Part shown: positions 20,401-60,853 of the stretch, piece by piece
Position numbering within the stretch: the stretch's first letter is position 1
Layout: each line of letters starts with the position of its first letter
Assembly (NCBI GenBank): GCA_951799425.1
Contig: OX637391.1
Span: 51,369,069 to 51,433,068, forward strand
DNA length: 64,000 nt
Direction of reading: 5' to 3'
DNA from: Ilex aquifolium
Lineage: Eukaryota; Streptophyta; Magnoliopsida; Aquifoliales; Aquifoliaceae
Notes under the pieces: model-generated
Told to the model about the DNA's origin: nothing
Databases searched by the model: none
The model's input: only the letters and a program-made list of their open reading frames with translations
Program-made: the position numbers and the translations under genes

Positions 20401-23400
20401 AGGTTTTCTCTCCTCCTGGTAAGCCATTAAGTTGCAGAACGGACTTGTTGTCGTCATCACCTTTTTTATCATCCCCATCAGAAAGTTCTGCGATATGATT
20501 TTCTAATACCCTGCTTCTGGACAATAATGGAAACTGCAACACAAGGGGAACAAAGGATAGCCAAGAGCAGCTCAATGAGTGATGACAAAGGGTTGGGGGC
20601 GACGGGGATTGAAAAAAAGGAAATAAAAAATGGGGGGGGGGGGATAAAAGCATTTACAAAACAACTGCATTAAACACATCCACAAGAAACGGTATTAAAG
20701 GGTTGTGAAAAACAAAGCACACAGAGCAGGAGGTTCAATTTTGAACTTTTCAAAGCATGCATATATAGAAGAGAAAAGAAAACAGAATGACAAACTATTT
20801 TTTATTGAAAAAAAAAAGAAGAGAATGACCATAAGGAGATGGTGTTAACATACAAAGTGTGGTATAATATAATCAAAATAGAAAACACGGTGATGTTGGC
20901 CAACCGAAATACACCTTGTGGAGGTGAAATGCCATCTCTCCAACTTCAATAATGACATCACTTGGAAGGCCAGTTGAGCAGAGCCTGCGATAAACCACAC
21001 TTATTGTTGGCTCTACACAGTATATATCAAAAGATAAAAAAATGTACAACACAAATTCATACTTTATTGGGAACAATGCAGAAATCAATTGAGAAATTCT
21101 GTATATTTAAATTATTCAGAAAGTTGACTAATAATTCTAATACTAACATTAATGATGAACACTTACTTGATCAAAACTGGAGACAAAATTTTAGTGTTCA
21201 ACAATTATGAGTCATTTACTGGAATGTAAGTGCTGCAAGCATGCCACAGACAATTCAACAGAAGATGCAAGGTTCTTCAAAAATTTACACACAATGTATT
21301 TCATTACCATATGTAGAAGACTTAAGAAAGAAACTTTCCAACCTATCGACCTGTAAAATGGTCACAACTATATATACCAAGATCGAACACGGTGAGAAAC
21401 ACTGAAACAGTAAACTAAATTGAGAAATATCCTTGGGATTACAAGGATATGATTGACTTCAGCACTTGAACCATAAGACTTTTTTTTTTTTTAAAGGGGT
21501 GCAACACGAGGACTTCCCAGGGGTCACCCATCCTAGTACTACTCTCGCCCAAACACGCTTAACTGCGGAGTTCTGATGGGATCCGGTGCATTAGTGCTGG
21601 TATAATCGCACCCTGAACCATAAGACAGTTAGCAGACCTATAGGATGCAGGATCACACACCCCTGTTTATGATCCCAGGTTAGAGCTATGCAGAATATCA
21701 CCATGTAAGACCTCTGTTAAATGAAAACAGTACCTCAATTCAATTTGACCCAACTTAATCAAATATCCACATTCCACTCCCCCTTTCATACCCCTGAAGG
21801 AGCTAAAAATTAACAAAAAGATTTAATTTTTCAATATTTGATTTAGTCAACCTTACCTGTTTTGTTTCCAATGTCTTTGCTGAAAAGCATCATCACATGG
21901 AAAATCTTTGAAAGACTAGACCACTATGCGACTGACCCATTAGGCCATCGGCAACTTAACACCCTTGATTCAAGCCAATGCACCTTTGAAAGTATAAAAC
22001 TGTGCTGCACAAATTTATTTACCAAATTTTGTATTCCAAGTGATGTGTCAAAATCCCATGCATTGAATATTTGGTGGAGTTAGTGAACCCACTAATCCAA
22101 CCACCTATATTGATTTGAGATACAAATTTGGGCAACAATTTGGTCAACATAGCATTGCTCTTATCTTTATTCATGTCCAATTTGAGTTAACTAGAGGGAG
22201 ATTGTACAAGTTATAACATTGGGTCCTGGATGATCTGTGATCCTCAATAACGTCTTATATTTCTGTGTTCAACTTTTACAAATCAAATAGAAAAGAAGCC
22301 ATGATGCAGGACACAGAGATCATGCAGAATAAACAAACACTAATATGAAAAGAAACTTGAACATCAGATAGAACTTTTCAAAAAAAACATCAGATATAGG
22401 GAAATTAGGGAACGAAGGTCCTTGGAGGGAAGTTGGATTACAACCTTCAAGTCAGTCTAACACAGACTCTTGAAACTGTGCAAAGCACCTATGCCAGCCA
22501 TGACATGGGAATGAGCACTGGACATGCATTTGTGATGCCTCCTATAAAACAGATATCATAGGGTCGTCTGTTGAAGGAAATGACAACTCATCCCCAGTGC
22601 ACCACGAGTCCACGATTTCACTAAGAAGCCTCAATCTGCTTGTGGTTTAGGATAATTCTATTCGGGGGAAGTACCTTATCTTACAAGCTTCGTTTTGCAG
22701 AAACTTAATTTTGCCCTATTAATGTTGTCTAGAATTGGATAATTGTTTAGTTTTGCATCAGCTTTCACGCATATATCCATGCAATATTCCAATAGTAAAT
22801 TCGTCATATAATATGAAATTCAACCGCATAGATGAGTCCCAATCCATTGGGTTAAAAAATTGACAGTTCAAATTAATTATCAAACTCATATTTACCTATC
22901 AAGATCTCATTTGCATATATAACAAAGAAATGTAGAATCCCTTAATTTCAATGTTTTATGGTTGGGTAGTTAAACAATTACAGAATTCCACCCAGTTAAA
23001 AGTCAAGTCATGCATAGGAGTGTTGAATTTCGGATCCCTTCAGATGAACTAGGTTCATGTATTTGTCATTCTTTTCTAATCATCCAGGTTATACAAACGC
23101 ATCTTCTTATGCAAGTGCACCTTGATGTTCTTTCCGGTATCCAAGTATACACCATTTACTTTCCATGTGTCCTGGTAAGGTCCCTCTTCAGGAACCAAAA
23201 AACAACTAAGGTCATTCCCTGGTCTATAAAAATACTAATGGCAGGTCCCAAAGGAAGACGGGTTGTGAAAAAATTACATTCTAAAAACGTTACGAATGTT
23301 TGAACTTCAACAAGGCATACTTTTTAATCTTCAAAAGTGCTCAAGTAGTAAACATATGCAAGAACCAAACTGCAGATACAAGGTAGATATAAACTAAGTG

Positions 23401-23963
23401 GCTAACATATAGAATCGATTTTTTGAATGCCATCAAGCAGTTGCAGCATAGGCAGTACATAGACTAACATGTAGAAATCGATTTCTCGAATGCCATAAAC
23501 CAATAGAGTATAAGCTGTTTGTGAATATTATCCAGTCAGTCAATCTTCGCCGGTGCCACTCCTTCGGAAAATCGATGTCTATATGTACTACCCTTAGTGT
23601 ATACGTACCTTGTACCGGCAATGGATAATATTCACAAACACCTTCCACCTCATATGAGTCCTCGACATATTAATCTTCCCTTAAAGCATAATCTCAGACC
23701 ATACACTAAAATAAAACTGAATTAATGCAACGTATATCATGTTCACGCATGCATTGTCCACTGAAACATACGTAGATCAAAATCACTGACACAAAATGAA
23801 CAAACCCATTACACCAATTGGGAAAAAAAAATCAAAACCCAATACGCAATTCTCAGAGAAAATGAACATGGGAAAAAAGAAAAATCAAAGAAATGACTGA
23901 CCAGGTCTGGCCATCGCGGTGAAAAACTTCTGATTTGGATCCTAACTTCATTATACACGCCAT
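17413..23963 (-). CDS. BTB/POZ and NPH3 domain protein (NRL family)
   Basis: Four exons on the minus strand: 23963-23902, 20984-20915, 20533-19292 and 17952-17413, all with GT-AG borders and matching phases, give 637 residues. The N-terminal BTB region spans roughly residues 20-130 ('LPSDVIIEVGEMAFHLHK', then 'FPLLSRS'). The NPH3 domain covers roughly 205-500, with the diagnostic 'WWYEDVSSLRLPLYKRLI', 'ETLYDIDCVQRILDHF' and 'AIDIYLKAHPWL' blocks. A coiled coil lies near 550-585. NRL proteins are plant-specific plasma-membrane adaptors, and several serve as substrate receptors for CUL3 ubiquitin ligases downstream of phototropins or in auxin transport. The four-exon structure matches that of known relatives. 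Introns 1 and 3 carry retroelement insertions. I do not assign a paralogue; the C terminus lacks features I would use to call it NPH3, RPT2 or NPY. Confidence 0.93.
18206..18364 (-). mobile_element. tRNA-derived SINE in intron 3 of the NPH3-type gene
   Basis: Read on the minus strand it starts TGGGCCTTAGCGCAGCGGTAAG, which holds an A box. A weakened B box follows ('tacgaggttgagtc'). It continues through 'cagcctctcgcaag' and ends 'ggcctaccctttgtg'. It is flanked by near-identical 12-mers, AATGTTTTTACA at 18194-18205 and AATGTTTTCACA at 18365-18376, a target duplication with one mismatch. It shares the tRNA-related head with the SINE at 15362 but has a different tail. Confidence 0.75.
21467..21626. 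mobile_element. Retrotransposed 5S insert with 13-bp target site duplication
   Basis: TGAACCATAAGAC occurs at 21467-21479 and again at 21614-21626, exactly flanking the 5S copy and its poly(A) tract (21480-21492 as T on the plus strand). A poly(A) tail plus a perfect 13-bp duplication is the mark of LINE-type target-primed reverse transcription. Confidence 0.92.
21496..21613 (-). pseudogene. 5S rRNA retrocopy (processed pseudogene)
   Basis: On the minus strand this is a nearly complete plant 5S rRNA: start GGGTGCGATTATACCAGC, internal control region with AGTTAAGCGTGTTTGGGCG, and end GTCCTCGTGTTGCACCCC. Compared with the usual plant 5S sequence as I know it, it has a few substitutions and seems to lack one base in the GGGTGACC-CCTGGG region. 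It is followed by TTT and then about 13 A residues. The whole is bounded by a perfect 13-bp duplication (see separate entry). It lies in intron 1 of the NPH3-type gene, same strand. It is a single dispersed copy, not part of a 5S array, and is unlikely to supply functional rRNA. Confidence 0.92.
23516..23640. repeat. Perfect 19-bp inverted repeat with 87-bp loop
   Basis: TGTTTGTGAATATTATCCA at 23516-23534 is repeated in reverse complement at 23622-23640. The loop also holds a weaker pair (cgccggtgcc / ttgtaccggca). Just upstream, 23406-23435 and 23468-23497 are diverged direct repeats (agaatcgattttttgaatgccat type). It lies in intron 1 of the NPH3-type gene. Confidence 0.85.
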
Positions 23964-39153: not shown

Positions 39154-42100
39154 TAGGGCTGTTAATCGAACTGAGCTACTCGAGCTCGGCTTGAGTTCGG
39201 CTCGTTTTGAGCTCGTTCGAGCTCGTTCGAATATAGTAAACAAGCCAAGTATGAACACAATTTTAGGCTTGTTTATAAACGAGCCGAGCTCAAGCTCGAA
39301 TTCGAGCAGCTTGACAGGCTTGATGAAGCTTGATATTTTTTACCTAATTTTCATATTATTTTTTAGTGGTTCAATCATAGCCGTCCATTCCAAATAAAGA
39401 TCCAATGGTGAGAACAACACATATATTTACATGTCTAAAGTCTAACCCTAATACACCCCAAACCCAAATCTAGCGCCGTTCTCCATCTCTCGTCTAGTCG
39501 TCTGCCTGACTGCCTCAACTCCACCTCTCGGCTGCCAGTGCACTCCCACTCATCGCCGATTCACGCCGATTCACGGTGATTGTTCACGGTGATTGTTCGT
39601 TAAGTCAAATGGTGATTGATTGTTCGTGATTCTGCCCCAACACGAGGTCTGGGCTCACAGTGATTGTTCGTGAAAGTACAACCCATCTCTCAACCCAAGA
39701 TAAGGTACATCTCTCGTCCATCTCTCGTGTGCTACATATTTGTTCAATTGATCAGGAACTTGTTTTAATTTCCAGATATGCATAACTTCTATGCTTCTAC
39801 GTAGCTAATAATATATATATACTCATCACTGCTATGAGCCAGACAAAACTCTACTTACAAATTATTTTGAAGAAAAGGAGGGTTCGACTTCGACTACTGG
39901 GTGTTTGCAGATATAAAATTAAACTTTGTGTTTAATTTACTAGTTTTTCTCTGTGGAAGTGGAACTAATTGGAAGGATATGGAGAAGAGAAGGTCAAGTT
40001 TGAGTTTTTTTTTTTTGGGTACATAAAATAGATGTACAAATAGTCACTCCACATATTAGCTAGAGAGTATTCTCTTCAATATTTAGTCTTACCGAATTAT
40101 CATAGCTCACCAGATGATACCACTCACTCACTTGCTCACCAGATGATGCAAATCCTAATATCAACAAAAATCTACCACTGTACTACAGTCACAATCAATA
40201 CTAATGTACTCAGATAAATAATATCCGCTGAGCAGCTTGGTTTAAAATTACAGCCTGATCAATCCACTATATTTTCTGTTAGTATAATTATTTTGGATTT
40301 CCCCTTCCATTTTGTATCTTCTGTTAGTATAATTTTGGATTTCCCCTTGCATAAGAGTGTTTGTGGATCTTTGGTCTCATATATATTGTTTGGGGATTGA
40401 ATATTCTATCGGCATTTCAACAGTAGTTCACATGCAAATTCATTCGTTAACATTCCTGTTGTTCGTGTCACTCGTACTATTTGTAACTTTATTTCCAATT
40501 TCATCTTTGTTTTGGTCAGATGGCTTCTGATTCTGTGCCCCCTAGTACAGTAAATGGTGGAAATCAAGAAGCTATCAATAATGATGCTGCTACAATCGCT
40601 GCTACAATTGAAGGGCCTTCTGAAAATGAACCACTCCAAAAAAAATGCAGGAAGAAGACCTCAAAAGTTTGGGATGAATTGGAGACAGTATATGAAAATG
40701 GAACAAGAAAGGCCAAGTGTACCCATTGTAAAACAAGTCTTTCTTTGGGTCGAGGGGCTCCCACAACTCATCTAAAAAGGCACTTGTTGACTTGTGCAAT
40801 TCGTCAAGCTTCTGTTTCCGGCCAAAAGAAAGGACCCACTCAACAATTATTGGCTCTCTCCTCAACTGCTTCCGATGGGTCTGTAACTATAAGTGGTGGG
40901 TTGGCATCTTATAAGTTTGACAAGGAGAAGGTAAGAGAAATCTTAGCAAAAATGATAATAGTGCATGAGTATCCTTTTAGGATGGTTGAACATGAATTGT
41001 TTGTGATGCTTCTTAAATCTCTGAACCCACGTTTTGAGCCAATTAAACGCCTCACCATAAAAAATGATTGCTTGAAAATATATGCGAATGAGAAAATGAA
41101 ATTGAAGAGAATGTTTTCTAGTGTTGACCGAATTAGCTTGACGACAGACTTATGGACCTCCAATCAAACAATCGGTTACATGTGCCTTACCGCACACTTT
41201 TTGGATACAGATTGGAAGTTACAAAAACGTATCTTGAATTTTTGTTGCTTGGCACCTCCACACACGGGTTTTGTGATTGCTGATTGTATTTACAAGTGTC
41301 TAACTGATTGGGAGATTGAAGATAAGGTGTCTACCATTACTCTAGACAATGCATCCGCAAATGATGTAGCAGTGAGAAATTTGAAAGATAATTTTTCTGT
41401 TAAAGGTAAGCTTTATTTCAATGGTAGAATATTTCATGTTCGGTGTTGTGCACATGTTTTGAATCTAATGGTACAAGATGGCTTGGGTGAGATAAGAGAT
41501 GTAATTGAAAACATACGTGAGAGTGTGAAATACTTGAAGATGTCTCCTTTGAGACTTGATAAATTCAATGAGATTGTAAAACAATTGCAATTGCCAACAA
41601 CTAGGAGATTGATTCTTGATGTGCCTACTCGGTGGAACTCAACATATGAAATGTTAGAATCTGCATTTGTGTTTAAAGAAGTGTTTCCAAGGTACAAAGA
41701 AAGAGATAGCAACTATCGATGGTTGCCAACTGAGGATGATTGGTCAAGAGCTGAAGAGGTATGCAAGTTTTTAGAAATATTTAATGATGCCACATATCTA
41801 TTCTCGGGTTCCTCTTACCCAACTTCGAATTTATTTCTTTGTGAAATTTGGAAAATTAGAAAGATTTTGAATGAGTATGAATTTGATAGTAGGGACTACA
41901 TGAGTCGCATGATTGCTAGAATGAGCGAAAAATTTGACAAGTATTGGGGAGATTGTAACTTGTTGATGGCAATTGCAGCGGTCCTAGATCCTAGATATAA
42001 AATGAGACTTGTTGAGTTTTGTTTTCCCAAAATTTATTCATCGGATGAAGTAGTGCATTATATAGATGTTGTTCGTAATTCCTTGTATGATCTCTACAAG

Positions 42101-43358
42101 GATTATGTGTCTAAAGATGTAAAACAATCAAAGACTTCGTCTGAAAGTAGCAATGTTGGTGGCACAAGCAATTTCAAGGGAAAGACAAAACGTGTGAATG
42201 AATTTGATCTATGGACCAAACAGTTGGATATTGTTCACCCATACAAGTCTGAGCTCGAAATTTATTTGGAAGAAGGCATTTACATTCGTGATGAAAATGA
42301 CACTGAGGATTTTGATGCGTTGAGTTGGTGGAAAGCAAACACTCTTAAGTTTAGAAACCTGTCAAAGATGGCACGGGACATACTATCTATTCCCATTACT
42401 TCAGTTGCTTCGGAGTCTGCTTTTAGTGCCGGAGGAAGAGTTCTTGATCAATATCGAAGCTCCTTGAAGCCCGAGACAGTTCAAGCTTTGATATGTACCG
42501 GAGATTGGTTGCGTAATGATTTTGAAATCCATGAATCAAATATTGTAAGTATATTTTTACCTTGTGTTTCATTTTGTTTTAGTCACTATGAATTTCATTG
42601 TTGGTGTCTTATTTACAGGTTGTTGAAGATAATGAGTTTATGAATGAAGGTAGCGAGGAAAACAACTTTTGAATCATCTTTTTAAAGGTATCAATAACAA
42701 TTCTTTGTTATGGTTTTGAATCATTTTTTTTTAAAGGTATCAAATACTAATTCTTGGTTATGATTTTTTCATTGCAGGCTCTACTACTAGGGCACTTGGC
42801 TGTTATTTGGTGAAACATGCTGTTTTTTTTTTTTTTTTTTTGCACTTGAGAACTTGTTTAATTTATTTGGTGGCACTTGACACTTGGTTGTTTAGTTGTG
42901 GCTGGTTGTTTAATTTGGCTATTTAGTTGTGGTTGGTTGTTTAGTTGGTGATCAGTTGTTTAGTTGGTTGTTTAGTTGTGGCTGGCTGGTTGTTTTGTTT
43001 GTGATGTGCATCAGTTCATGTGAATGTTGTGTGTTGGAACTTGGGTGATGTCTATGGTCCTATGGAGAAGTTGATTATGAATTTGTTGAGTTTTGTTGAA
43101 ATTCAAGCTTTGTTCGCAAGCCTGAATTCGATTTTTTTTGTCAAGCTTCATACGAGCTTGAGCTCGGATTCGAGCTTGTTAACAGAAACGAGCTTAATCA
43201 AGCCGAGCTTGAACTTTTCATTTTTCATTCAAGCCGAGCTCGAGCCAAAAAAAAAGCTTGATGTTCGAGCTCAAGCCGAGCTTGAACACCTTCCCAAAAC
43301 GTCAAGCCGAGCTTGAGCATCGTGAAGCTCGTCGAGCCAGGCTTGATTAACACCCCTA
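39154..43358 (+). mobile_element. Complete hAT-superfamily DNA transposon (about 4.2 kb)
   Basis: The ends are inverted repeats: left TAGGGCTGTTAATCGAAC, right (as reverse complement) TAGGGGTGTTAATCAAGC. A perfect 8-bp target duplication CCTACGGA lies at 39146-39153 and 43359-43366, the size expected for hAT elements. Subterminal zones (39175-39325 and 43130-43345) are packed with GAGCTCG / GCCGAGCTTGA motifs in both orientations, as expected for transposase binding sites. It encodes one uninterrupted transposase gene (next entry). 39430-40519 would be its promoter and leader, with a repeated 'cacggtgattgttc' near 39570-39600. Confidence 0.95.
40520..42672 (+). CDS. hAT transposase, intact, two exons
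   Basis: Exons 40520-42544 and 42619-42672 (donor GTAAGT, acceptor TTTACAG) give 692 residues. Reading through the intron instead gives 707 with an unrelated tail, so the splice is likely. A BED zinc finger lies at about 45-92 (C67, C70, H84, H88 or C92), preceded by a basic KKCRKK. The RNase H-like core follows: the first Asp in 'TTDLWTS', the second in 'TLDNASAND', then the CxxH-like 'RCCAHVLNL', and the Glu in 'SVASESAFSAGG'. The C-terminal hATC dimerisation domain runs from 'LDIVHPYKSELEIYLEEG' to 'ALICTGDWL'. There are no stops or shifts. It resembles the Ac / DAYSLEEPER / RICESLEEPER branch. The cut-and-paste catalytic residues all seem present. A CAG just before the ATG may mark a 5'UTR splice acceptor. 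Confidence 0.93.
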
Positions 43359-59280: not shown

Positions 59281-60853
59281 AGCGTCATGACGAGTGACAA
59301 TCCTGGCTCTCATCTGTCATTTAGTTTAAAATTGACTAAGATTGCTGATCAATTGCAGAAGCTCCTTCAACAGCCTGATACTCTCTCCATCTCACCTTCT
59401 ATAGGTTAGTTCACTTCGGGTCCTTCAGGTATATCTCGAAATGCTTGGGTCTTTGACTCAGGTGCTACCCACCATATGACTAGTGATTCTTTCTTATTTG
59501 AATCTACATTTTCTCCTCCATCTGTTTCTGTGCTTGCAGCTAATGGTACACAAATGTCCTTGGTTGGTGTTGGATCTATAATTTTTCCACATCTAACACT
59601 TCCTAATGTTTATTATATTCCACAGCTTACCTTGAATTTAATTTCAGTTAGTCAGCTATTTGACTCTGGATTTTCAGTTCATTTTTCCTCTTCCGGTTGT
59701 ATTGTACAGGATCCATATTCCAAGAACTGATTGGGACAAGCAGTAGAAATGGAGGATTGTATGTGTTAGACGAGTTACATATTCCTGATATTGTTGCTTC
59801 TACTATTGATTTATCTTCTTTTCATTTAAGTCTACAGTCTTCTAGTTTCTATTTGTGGCATTCTCGTCTTGGTCATGTGTCCCATTATCGTTTGAAATTT
59901 TTAGTCTCTGCTGGTAATTTGGGTCATTTAGAGTGTCATGATATTTTCAGTTGTAGTGGATGTAAGTTAACTAAATTTACTGCATTACCTTTTAATAAAA
60001 GTTCCACTAGCTCACTTGCACATTTTGATCTGGTTCATTCTGATATTTGGGGACCGGCTTCTGTTCCCACAAAATAAGGGTCTAAATATTATGTCTCTTT
60101 TATTGATGATTATACTAGGTTTTGTTGGGTTTATCTCATGAAACATCGTTCTGAATTCTTTTCTATATTCACTATTTTTCGTGCTATGATACGTACTCAA
60201 TATTCATCTGTTATTAAATGTTTTTGATGTGACCAAGGAGGAGAATATTCTTTCAATTCTTTTCGTGATCTATTAAAATCTGATGGCACTATTTGACAAT
60301 CTTCTTGTACTGACACACCTGAACAGAATGATGTAGCAAAGCGCAAACACTGACATATTATGGAGATAGCACGCTCTCTCTTATTGTCAGCAAATGTCCC
60401 AAGTTCTTTTTGGGGGGAAACAGTTCTTACTGTGGTCCATCTGATTAATTCCATTCCCACTGTCATCACCTCTGGAATTTCTCCATTTAAAAAACTATGT
60501 GGTAAACCACCTGATTATTTCTCTTTGCGTGTATTTGGATGCACTTGCTTTATTTTGCTTCCTAGTGTTCTTCGTACTGAGCTCTCTGCTCGTTCAGCTT
60601 TATGTGTTTTTATTTGTTATGGTGAGGGTCAAAAGGGATATCATTGCTATGATCCATGTGCGCACAAAGCACATTGAGATTGATTGTCACTTTGTGCGCC
60701 ATCATTTGCAGCAGGCCACCATCACTCTCCCATTTCTTCCTTCCACAATGCAGATAGCGGATTTTTTTACGAAATCTCACACCATAGCACATTTTGGATT
60801 TCTTCTTGGCAAACTCTTGATGTTTTTCGCCACATCATGAGTTTGAGAGGGGG
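59281..60853 (+). pseudogene. Decayed Ty1/copia polyprotein, mostly lacking RT and RNase H
   Basis: In order are the aspartic protease site (DSGATHHM near 59455), the protease and GAG-pre-integrase region ('LWHSRLGHVS' near 59855, then the C-x2-C of 'SGCKL'), and the integrase core ('HSDIWGP', 'SFIDDYTRF', 'WGETVLTVVHLINSIP', 'PPDYFSLRVFGCTCF'). The zinc finger seems degraded. At about 60675 the frame jumps to the extreme RNase H end ('MQIADFFTKS...HFGFLLGKL'), so the reverse transcriptase and most of RNase H have been deleted. There are several in-frame stops and shifts. The element cannot move by itself. Confidence 0.88.

Follow-up and report, generated by a model that had tools for sequence, protein, structure and literature searches.

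LINE-mobilised retropseudogenes are recognised by a target duplication of about 7-20 bp that abuts the insert, an A-tail, and a complete or 5'-truncated copy of an RNA that lacks genomic sequence from around the source gene. Target-primed reverse transcription is marked by three of these traits, namely 5' truncation, the A-tail and the duplication. In mammals, 5S rRNA retropseudogenes mobilised by L1 are common, and the accessible part of a survey gives 555 tailless ones in human (PMC5322556). The same survey screened plants, for which its accessible part names only eight U2 copies, from maize (PMC5322556). Plant 5S pseudogenes have been described in arrays (PMC6526317) or, as far as the accessible text goes, with no stated place (PMC11070557). 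In the open-licence literature searched, at the level of titles and abstract openings of the papers listed, we found no report of an A-tailed 5S retrocopy in a plant; retrocopies of this kind are thus known from mammals and, apparently, unreported in plants. In the accessible text of the respective sources, the LINEs of flowering plants are described as almost exclusively L1-clade elements that mostly have a poly(A) end and for which relaxed recognition has been suggested (PMC3747384), and yerba mate (I. paraguariensis) is reported to contain 25,816 L1/CIN4 pieces (PMC11709435).

The window, that is, the whole stretch of 64,000 nt of Ilex aquifolium DNA analysed here (C1:51369069-51433068; 35.8% GC), contains a 5S rRNA copy of this kind. 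It produced the single cmscan match at gathering score in the window, to the 5S rRNA model RF00001 (21613..21496, minus strand; model positions 1-120 of 120, 104.9 bits, E 6e-22). The sole other match in the window at E<=1, to MIR828, was sub-threshold (27.7 vs 69 bits gathering) and was rejected. No tRNA-SINE neighbourhood was detected, with 0 tRNAs shown by ARAGORN in the window. The features of the insertion and of the surrounding gene are as follows.

20915..20984, minus strand: exon 2 of the NPH3/BTB gene, start of the BTB domain (gene reading)
20985..23901, minus strand: intron 1, 2,917 nt, which carries the insertion (splice reading)
21467..21479, no strand: target-site duplication on the A-tail (3') side, TGAACCATAAGAC on the + strand, 13/13 exact against 21614-21626
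21480..21492, minus strand: A-tail, 13 A in sense (sequence)
21493..21495, minus strand: TTT left of the 5S terminator run, which is T7 in the array genes (sequence; array flank)
21496..21613, minus strand: full-length 5S rRNA retrocopy, 118 nt (RF00001, 104.9 bits; alignment to the array)
21525..21534, minus strand: canonical C-box AGGATGGGTG, intact, with a base missing directly 3' (alignment; motif as given in the accessible part of PMC10853983)
21614..21626, no strand: target-site duplication on the 5' side of the 5S (exact repeat)
23902..23963, minus strand: exon 1 of this At5g03250-like NPH3/BTB gene (joined in frame to exon 2; N-terminus resembling those of the Malania and Ziziphus relatives)

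The sequence TGAACCATAAGAC occurs exactly, and twice, on the + strand of the window (21467-21479 and 21614-21626), the repeat pair not being extendable by a base on either side, and its reverse complement is absent from the window. The 134 nt between the repeats consist of the 118 nt of 5S, TTT and A13 (in sense), with no other sequence, such that the insert reads, in sense order, GTCTTATGGTTCA - 5S (118 nt) - TTT - A13 - GTCTTATGGTTCA. The probability that two given 13-mers of such composition match is about 4e-8, and a 13/13 match at a spacing of 147 nt is found only here within the window. Among the 42 A- or T-runs of at least 9 nt in the window, one, that of the 5S copy, has an abutting exact duplicate of at least 10 nt within 1,500 nt, and 20 mononucleotide-shuffled windows in which the runs were kept in place yielded no duplicates of 13 nt or more. 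The window copy thus combines a 13-bp duplication, A13 and a start at base 1 of the 5S, and lacks the upstream sequence of the array, as expected of a LINE-mobilised retropseudogene. Every detail of the original prediction of a full-length 5S copy with an A-tail and a perfect 13-bp duplication within an intron was confirmed.

The search for the source of this copy covered the window's own assembly (800,232,872 bases, 103 contigs). In an Rfam search of the genome, 47 of the 21,316 candidates were scored, 46 of them on contig C14, nearly all in a 5S array, and one on C12. From overlapping stretches, we obtained 53 readings of array units (one of which is the C12 copy), usually of 119 nt and followed by TTTTTTTGCGTC in 51; behind the 5S, the array has T7-GCGTC and then its own spacer. 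Units of the C14 array (L001, L003-L008) are often about 283 bp apart, and several coding variants occur next to one another (GTCAAG for GTTAAG or CTTGTG for CTCGTG, for instance). The plant-type 5S core had 0 matches in viral_contigs and 0 in genome_contigs. Compared with the commonest array unit of the genome, the window copy carries two substitutions, C10T and C61T, and four C where the unit has five in a row, and it differs from a published Citrus 5S by six substitutions and one deletion, the last base aside. The idea that the window copy lost a T present in the 5S of other plants proved wrong: the array of the same genome has C at this position, and what is missing from the copy is one of the five C.

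The divergence of the window copy amounts to 2 substitutions in 157 nt, or 1.3% (0.15-4.6%). The original prediction took the perfect duplication as a sign of youth; the perfection stands, but it is uninformative with respect to age because 0 changes in 26 nt allow up to 14% divergence. As for the further suggestion that the copy retains the internal promoter and could be transcribed by pol III, the C-box 10-mer is intact, whereas the base missing just 3' of it, C61T in the box A region, the run of only 3 T behind the 5S and the position of the first TTTT, at +138, make transcription doubtful. Measured against the upstream preferences of Arabidopsis 5S genes, the yardstick for these positions, the copy has TATAGG at -29, by an accident of the target, TC at -12/-11 and A at -1. 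Its fold, computed in isolation, reaches z -0.81 vs -2.50 for a Citrus 5S, which indicates a lower stability. If pol III did transcribe the window copy, the product would be a 5S-intron chimera.

The copy lies in sense orientation in intron 1 of an NPH3/BTB gene (At5g03250-like, NRL), about 480 nt before exon 2; its sense placement in an NRL-gene intron agrees with the original prediction. The WAV3-like and NPH3 open reading frames of the window share 98% and 97% identity, respectively, with two Ilex paraguariensis proteins, which probably places the host in Ilex, as another species or as a diverged haplotype; the I. paraguariensis gene model has no exon 1. Most likely, the window copy is an inert pseudogene that is removed with the intron by splicing, and for the NRL gene itself, it is probably without meaning. 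Intron 1 also contains a fold-back of ~270 nt (window 23371-23644) that resembles a MITE or a hairpin locus, with arm pairs of 43 nt (77%), 23 nt (96%) and 14 nt (86%). Elsewhere in the window, an open reading frame of 707 aa (40520-42643) encodes an apparently uninterrupted hAT transposase with the hAT RNase-H-like and dimerisation domains, for which clear terminal repeats were not found, and frames with a GAG-pre-integrase domain (59697-60840) represent a Copia-like remnant.

To the genome as a whole, we applied a pattern that consists of the 5S 3' end, up to 10 nt, and then A9. The pattern returned 122 rows (23 forward, 99 reverse), vs 0 and 0 for the reversed-pattern control, and 100 of these rows resolved into at least 44 places, the window included. 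Two of these, L065 and L066, repeat the block that contains L064, so that there are at least 42 distinct A-tailed 5S copies or fragments, again including the window copy. The three blocks (G000:C6 near 13.79, 13.88 and 13.97 Mb) contain the same truncated A-tailed 5S with the same flanks, about 94 kb apart, and represent a local segmental triplication.

Because the pattern demands an A-tail, the set is selected for this feature, so the tails and the missing array flank are not evidence here; what counts are the duplications, the 5' ends, the T-runs and the divergence. Among the matches listed, 15 of the 42 copies are full-length, from base 1 to 118/119, and 27 are 5'-truncated, the 5S starting at positions 9 to 104; five of the truncated pieces retain at most 23 nt of 5S (starts 97-104). 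Exact abutting duplications of at least 10 bp (range 10-17 bp) accompany 18 of the 42 listed copies, including 10 of the 15 full-length ones, and reach at least 12 bp in 13; the other 24 showed none of 10 bp or longer. In 200 rounds in which the downstream flanks were exchanged among loci, such duplications numbered 0.005 on average and never more than 1. The T-run behind the 5S, counted for 43 loci among the matches listed, varies from 0 to 8, most commonly 4, vs T7 in the array, and is followed by A; the longest A-run ranges from 9 to 20 across the listed copies (the A-tail being a selection criterion), and the array flank GCGTC is present in 0 of these 42. The C12 copy (L002, L081) is identical to the commonest array unit over 119/119 positions, ends in TTTTT and an A-tail of about 20, and is flanked by a perfect duplication of 17 bp, or 16 bp if one A is assigned to the tail; it looks very recent. 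The window copy, for which an RNA template had been proposed from its 5' end, terminator-like 3' end, A-tail and flanking duplication, is one of many, with at least 41 further A-tailed 5S loci of the same build.

At the nick sites of the 18 copies with a duplication, the duplication begins with A in 14 cases (P 0.04, with the A-tail ambiguity allowed for) and is preceded by T in 10 (P 0.36); the window copy scores 1 of 6 against the nick motif TT/AAAA. The L1 nick motif is weak in these copies and neither proves nor excludes L1.

Taken together, these observations suggest, with a probability of about 0.85, that each of the 42 listed A-tailed copies goes back to a 5S transcript that had been oligoadenylated and was then, probably by a LINE of the L1 clade, reverse-transcribed and inserted, a reading in which both the agency of a LINE and the adenylation of 5S RNA are deduced from the structure of the copies. 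Under this scenario, pol III would terminate 5S transcription inside the T7 run, so that a few U remain, and the untrimmed end would receive about 10-20 A, as performed by nuclear surveillance in yeast. A poly(A)-recognising plant L1 complex would then take up the 5S RNA in trans, nick the target, prime there and copy the RNA wholly or partly, and repair of the staggered nick would generate the target duplication. The starting point of every event would be RNA of the array rather than an older copy. The order of a T-run and then A is consistent with pol III termination within the T-run and subsequent adenylation of the transcript. In yeast, according to the accessible part of the source, badly finished 5S RNA is adenylated at -3, -2 and +11, with tracts averaging 12-14 A (PMC11115967).

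The genome also contains a full-length U6 snRNA copy (L082, G000:C8:5066613-5067643; 96.1 bits) that ends in TTT and A13 and is flanked by a 16-bp duplication, as well as a second A-tailed U6 copy (L083, 67.1 bits) for which a duplication was not found. Since L082 is built in the same way, the machinery does not act on 5S alone. The 2 U6 places, vs at least 44 for 5S, provide a rough yardstick, the ratio being approximate because the pattern used for U6 was longer and had to match exactly.

The presence of many copies of one build in one genome, along with pairs of copies that share two or three changes (L070 with L054 and L055), would also be expected of a body-less, SINE3-like 5S SINE family that spread from one or a few transcribed masters already equipped with the T-A tail. 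We consider such a family improbable. All changes shared by these pairs are transitions at C or G, and among the matches listed, 100 of the 147 changes from the array (88 distinct) are C>T or G>A, as would be expected of methylated cytosine; the most widely shared changes, G97-99A, occur in 6-8 of 38 copies and are of the same transition type. The change lists of the 42 listed copies, judged by eye with no fitted tree, contained no lineage-defining change and no master-copy subfamilies, the shared changes being C>T or G>A at repeatedly hit spots, and the lengths of the T-run and the A-tail differ between copies, one of which is identical to the array. The absence of a SINE body, noted for the window copy in the original prediction, extends to the whole set: an all-against-all comparison of the 500-nt flanks of the 42 listed copies found no shared body near the 5S, its three matches being two within single loci and one of 49 nt at 80% far from the 5S. 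Between the full-length copies and the array, 0-15 substitutions were counted (median 3), which points to repeated events over time. By eye, repeated events from array RNA fit better than amplification of a master.

Alternatively, the A-tail might never have been on the 5S RNA, if the LINE reverse transcriptase began on its own poly(A) RNA and then switched to 5S at its U-rich 3' end, so that nothing but A separates 5S and target. Such jumps between templates, which L1 is known to make in the case of U6 chimeras, should create the same junction between T-run and A, but LINE 3' sequence would often be expected between the 5S and the tail, whereas the tails seen here consist of T and then A with few other bases (the pattern allowed at most 10 nt there), and we regard this route as very unlikely. 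It is barely conceivable that the window copy, instead of stemming from an RNA, is what remains of a Cassandra-type LTR element or of a 5S array. Dispersed 5S genes and Cassandra elements do occur in plants, but the insert boundaries led us to reject both origins: the T7-GCGTC flank and the spacer of the array are absent, the duplications adjoin both ends of the 5S, and the 5S is not located within an LTR.

Beyond the origin of the individual copies from adenylated 5S transcripts, we tentatively propose, as a possibility we rate below even odds, that LINEs in hollies carry the 5S transcript as a standing cargo, which is oligoadenylated at its U-run and inserted repeatedly. The result would be a body-less, master-free 5S "SINE" that scatters pol III promoters, including into introns, and a plant example of the step proposed for the 5S promoter of Cassandra. 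The origin of Cassandra is unexplained in the accessible text of the source, where the proposal is that a 5S-headed SINE inserted into an LTR (PMC10886601). Dozens of clean 5S insertions, one of them identical to the array, imply that 5S RNA has been repeatedly copied into a plant genome, and hence that the raw step exists. As a natural experiment, the copies offer a measure of the pol III RNAs that are acceptable to plant LINEs, 5S frequently and U6 seldom, and, because each insertion froze the 3' end, the U-run and the A-tail of one RNA molecule, also of 5S RNA surveillance. For genome annotation, they are a warning that scattered 5S matches in plants can be retrocopies.

In the following comparison, statements on cited systems refer to the accessible parts of the sources. 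The holly copies resemble the mammalian 5S retropseudogenes in that many genomic copies of 5S RNA are flanked by target duplications and are attributed to machinery acting in trans, but the mammalian ones that were counted are 3'-truncated and tailless, whereas those of holly have a complete 3' end, a U-run and an A-tail, are in many cases 5'-truncated, and reside in a plant host (PMC5322556). With the A-tailed processed pseudogenes of plant mRNAs, they share the proposed mobilisation in trans by a poly(A)-recognising plant L1, (PMC3747384), although the holly template is 5S, a pol III product ordinarily devoid of an A-tail. Cassandra, a plant LTR element with 5S in its LTRs, likewise accounts for dispersed 5S-derived sequence in plants; in Cassandra, however, the 5S lies inside the LTR and has no A-tail at its end, unlike in the holly copies (PMC10853983). 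Finally, SINE3, the 5S-headed SINEs of animals, are similar in combining a dispersed 5S, its internal promoter and duplications, but they have a body behind the 5S head and amplify from their own copies, whereas the holly copies have no body and diverge from the array in a star-like manner.
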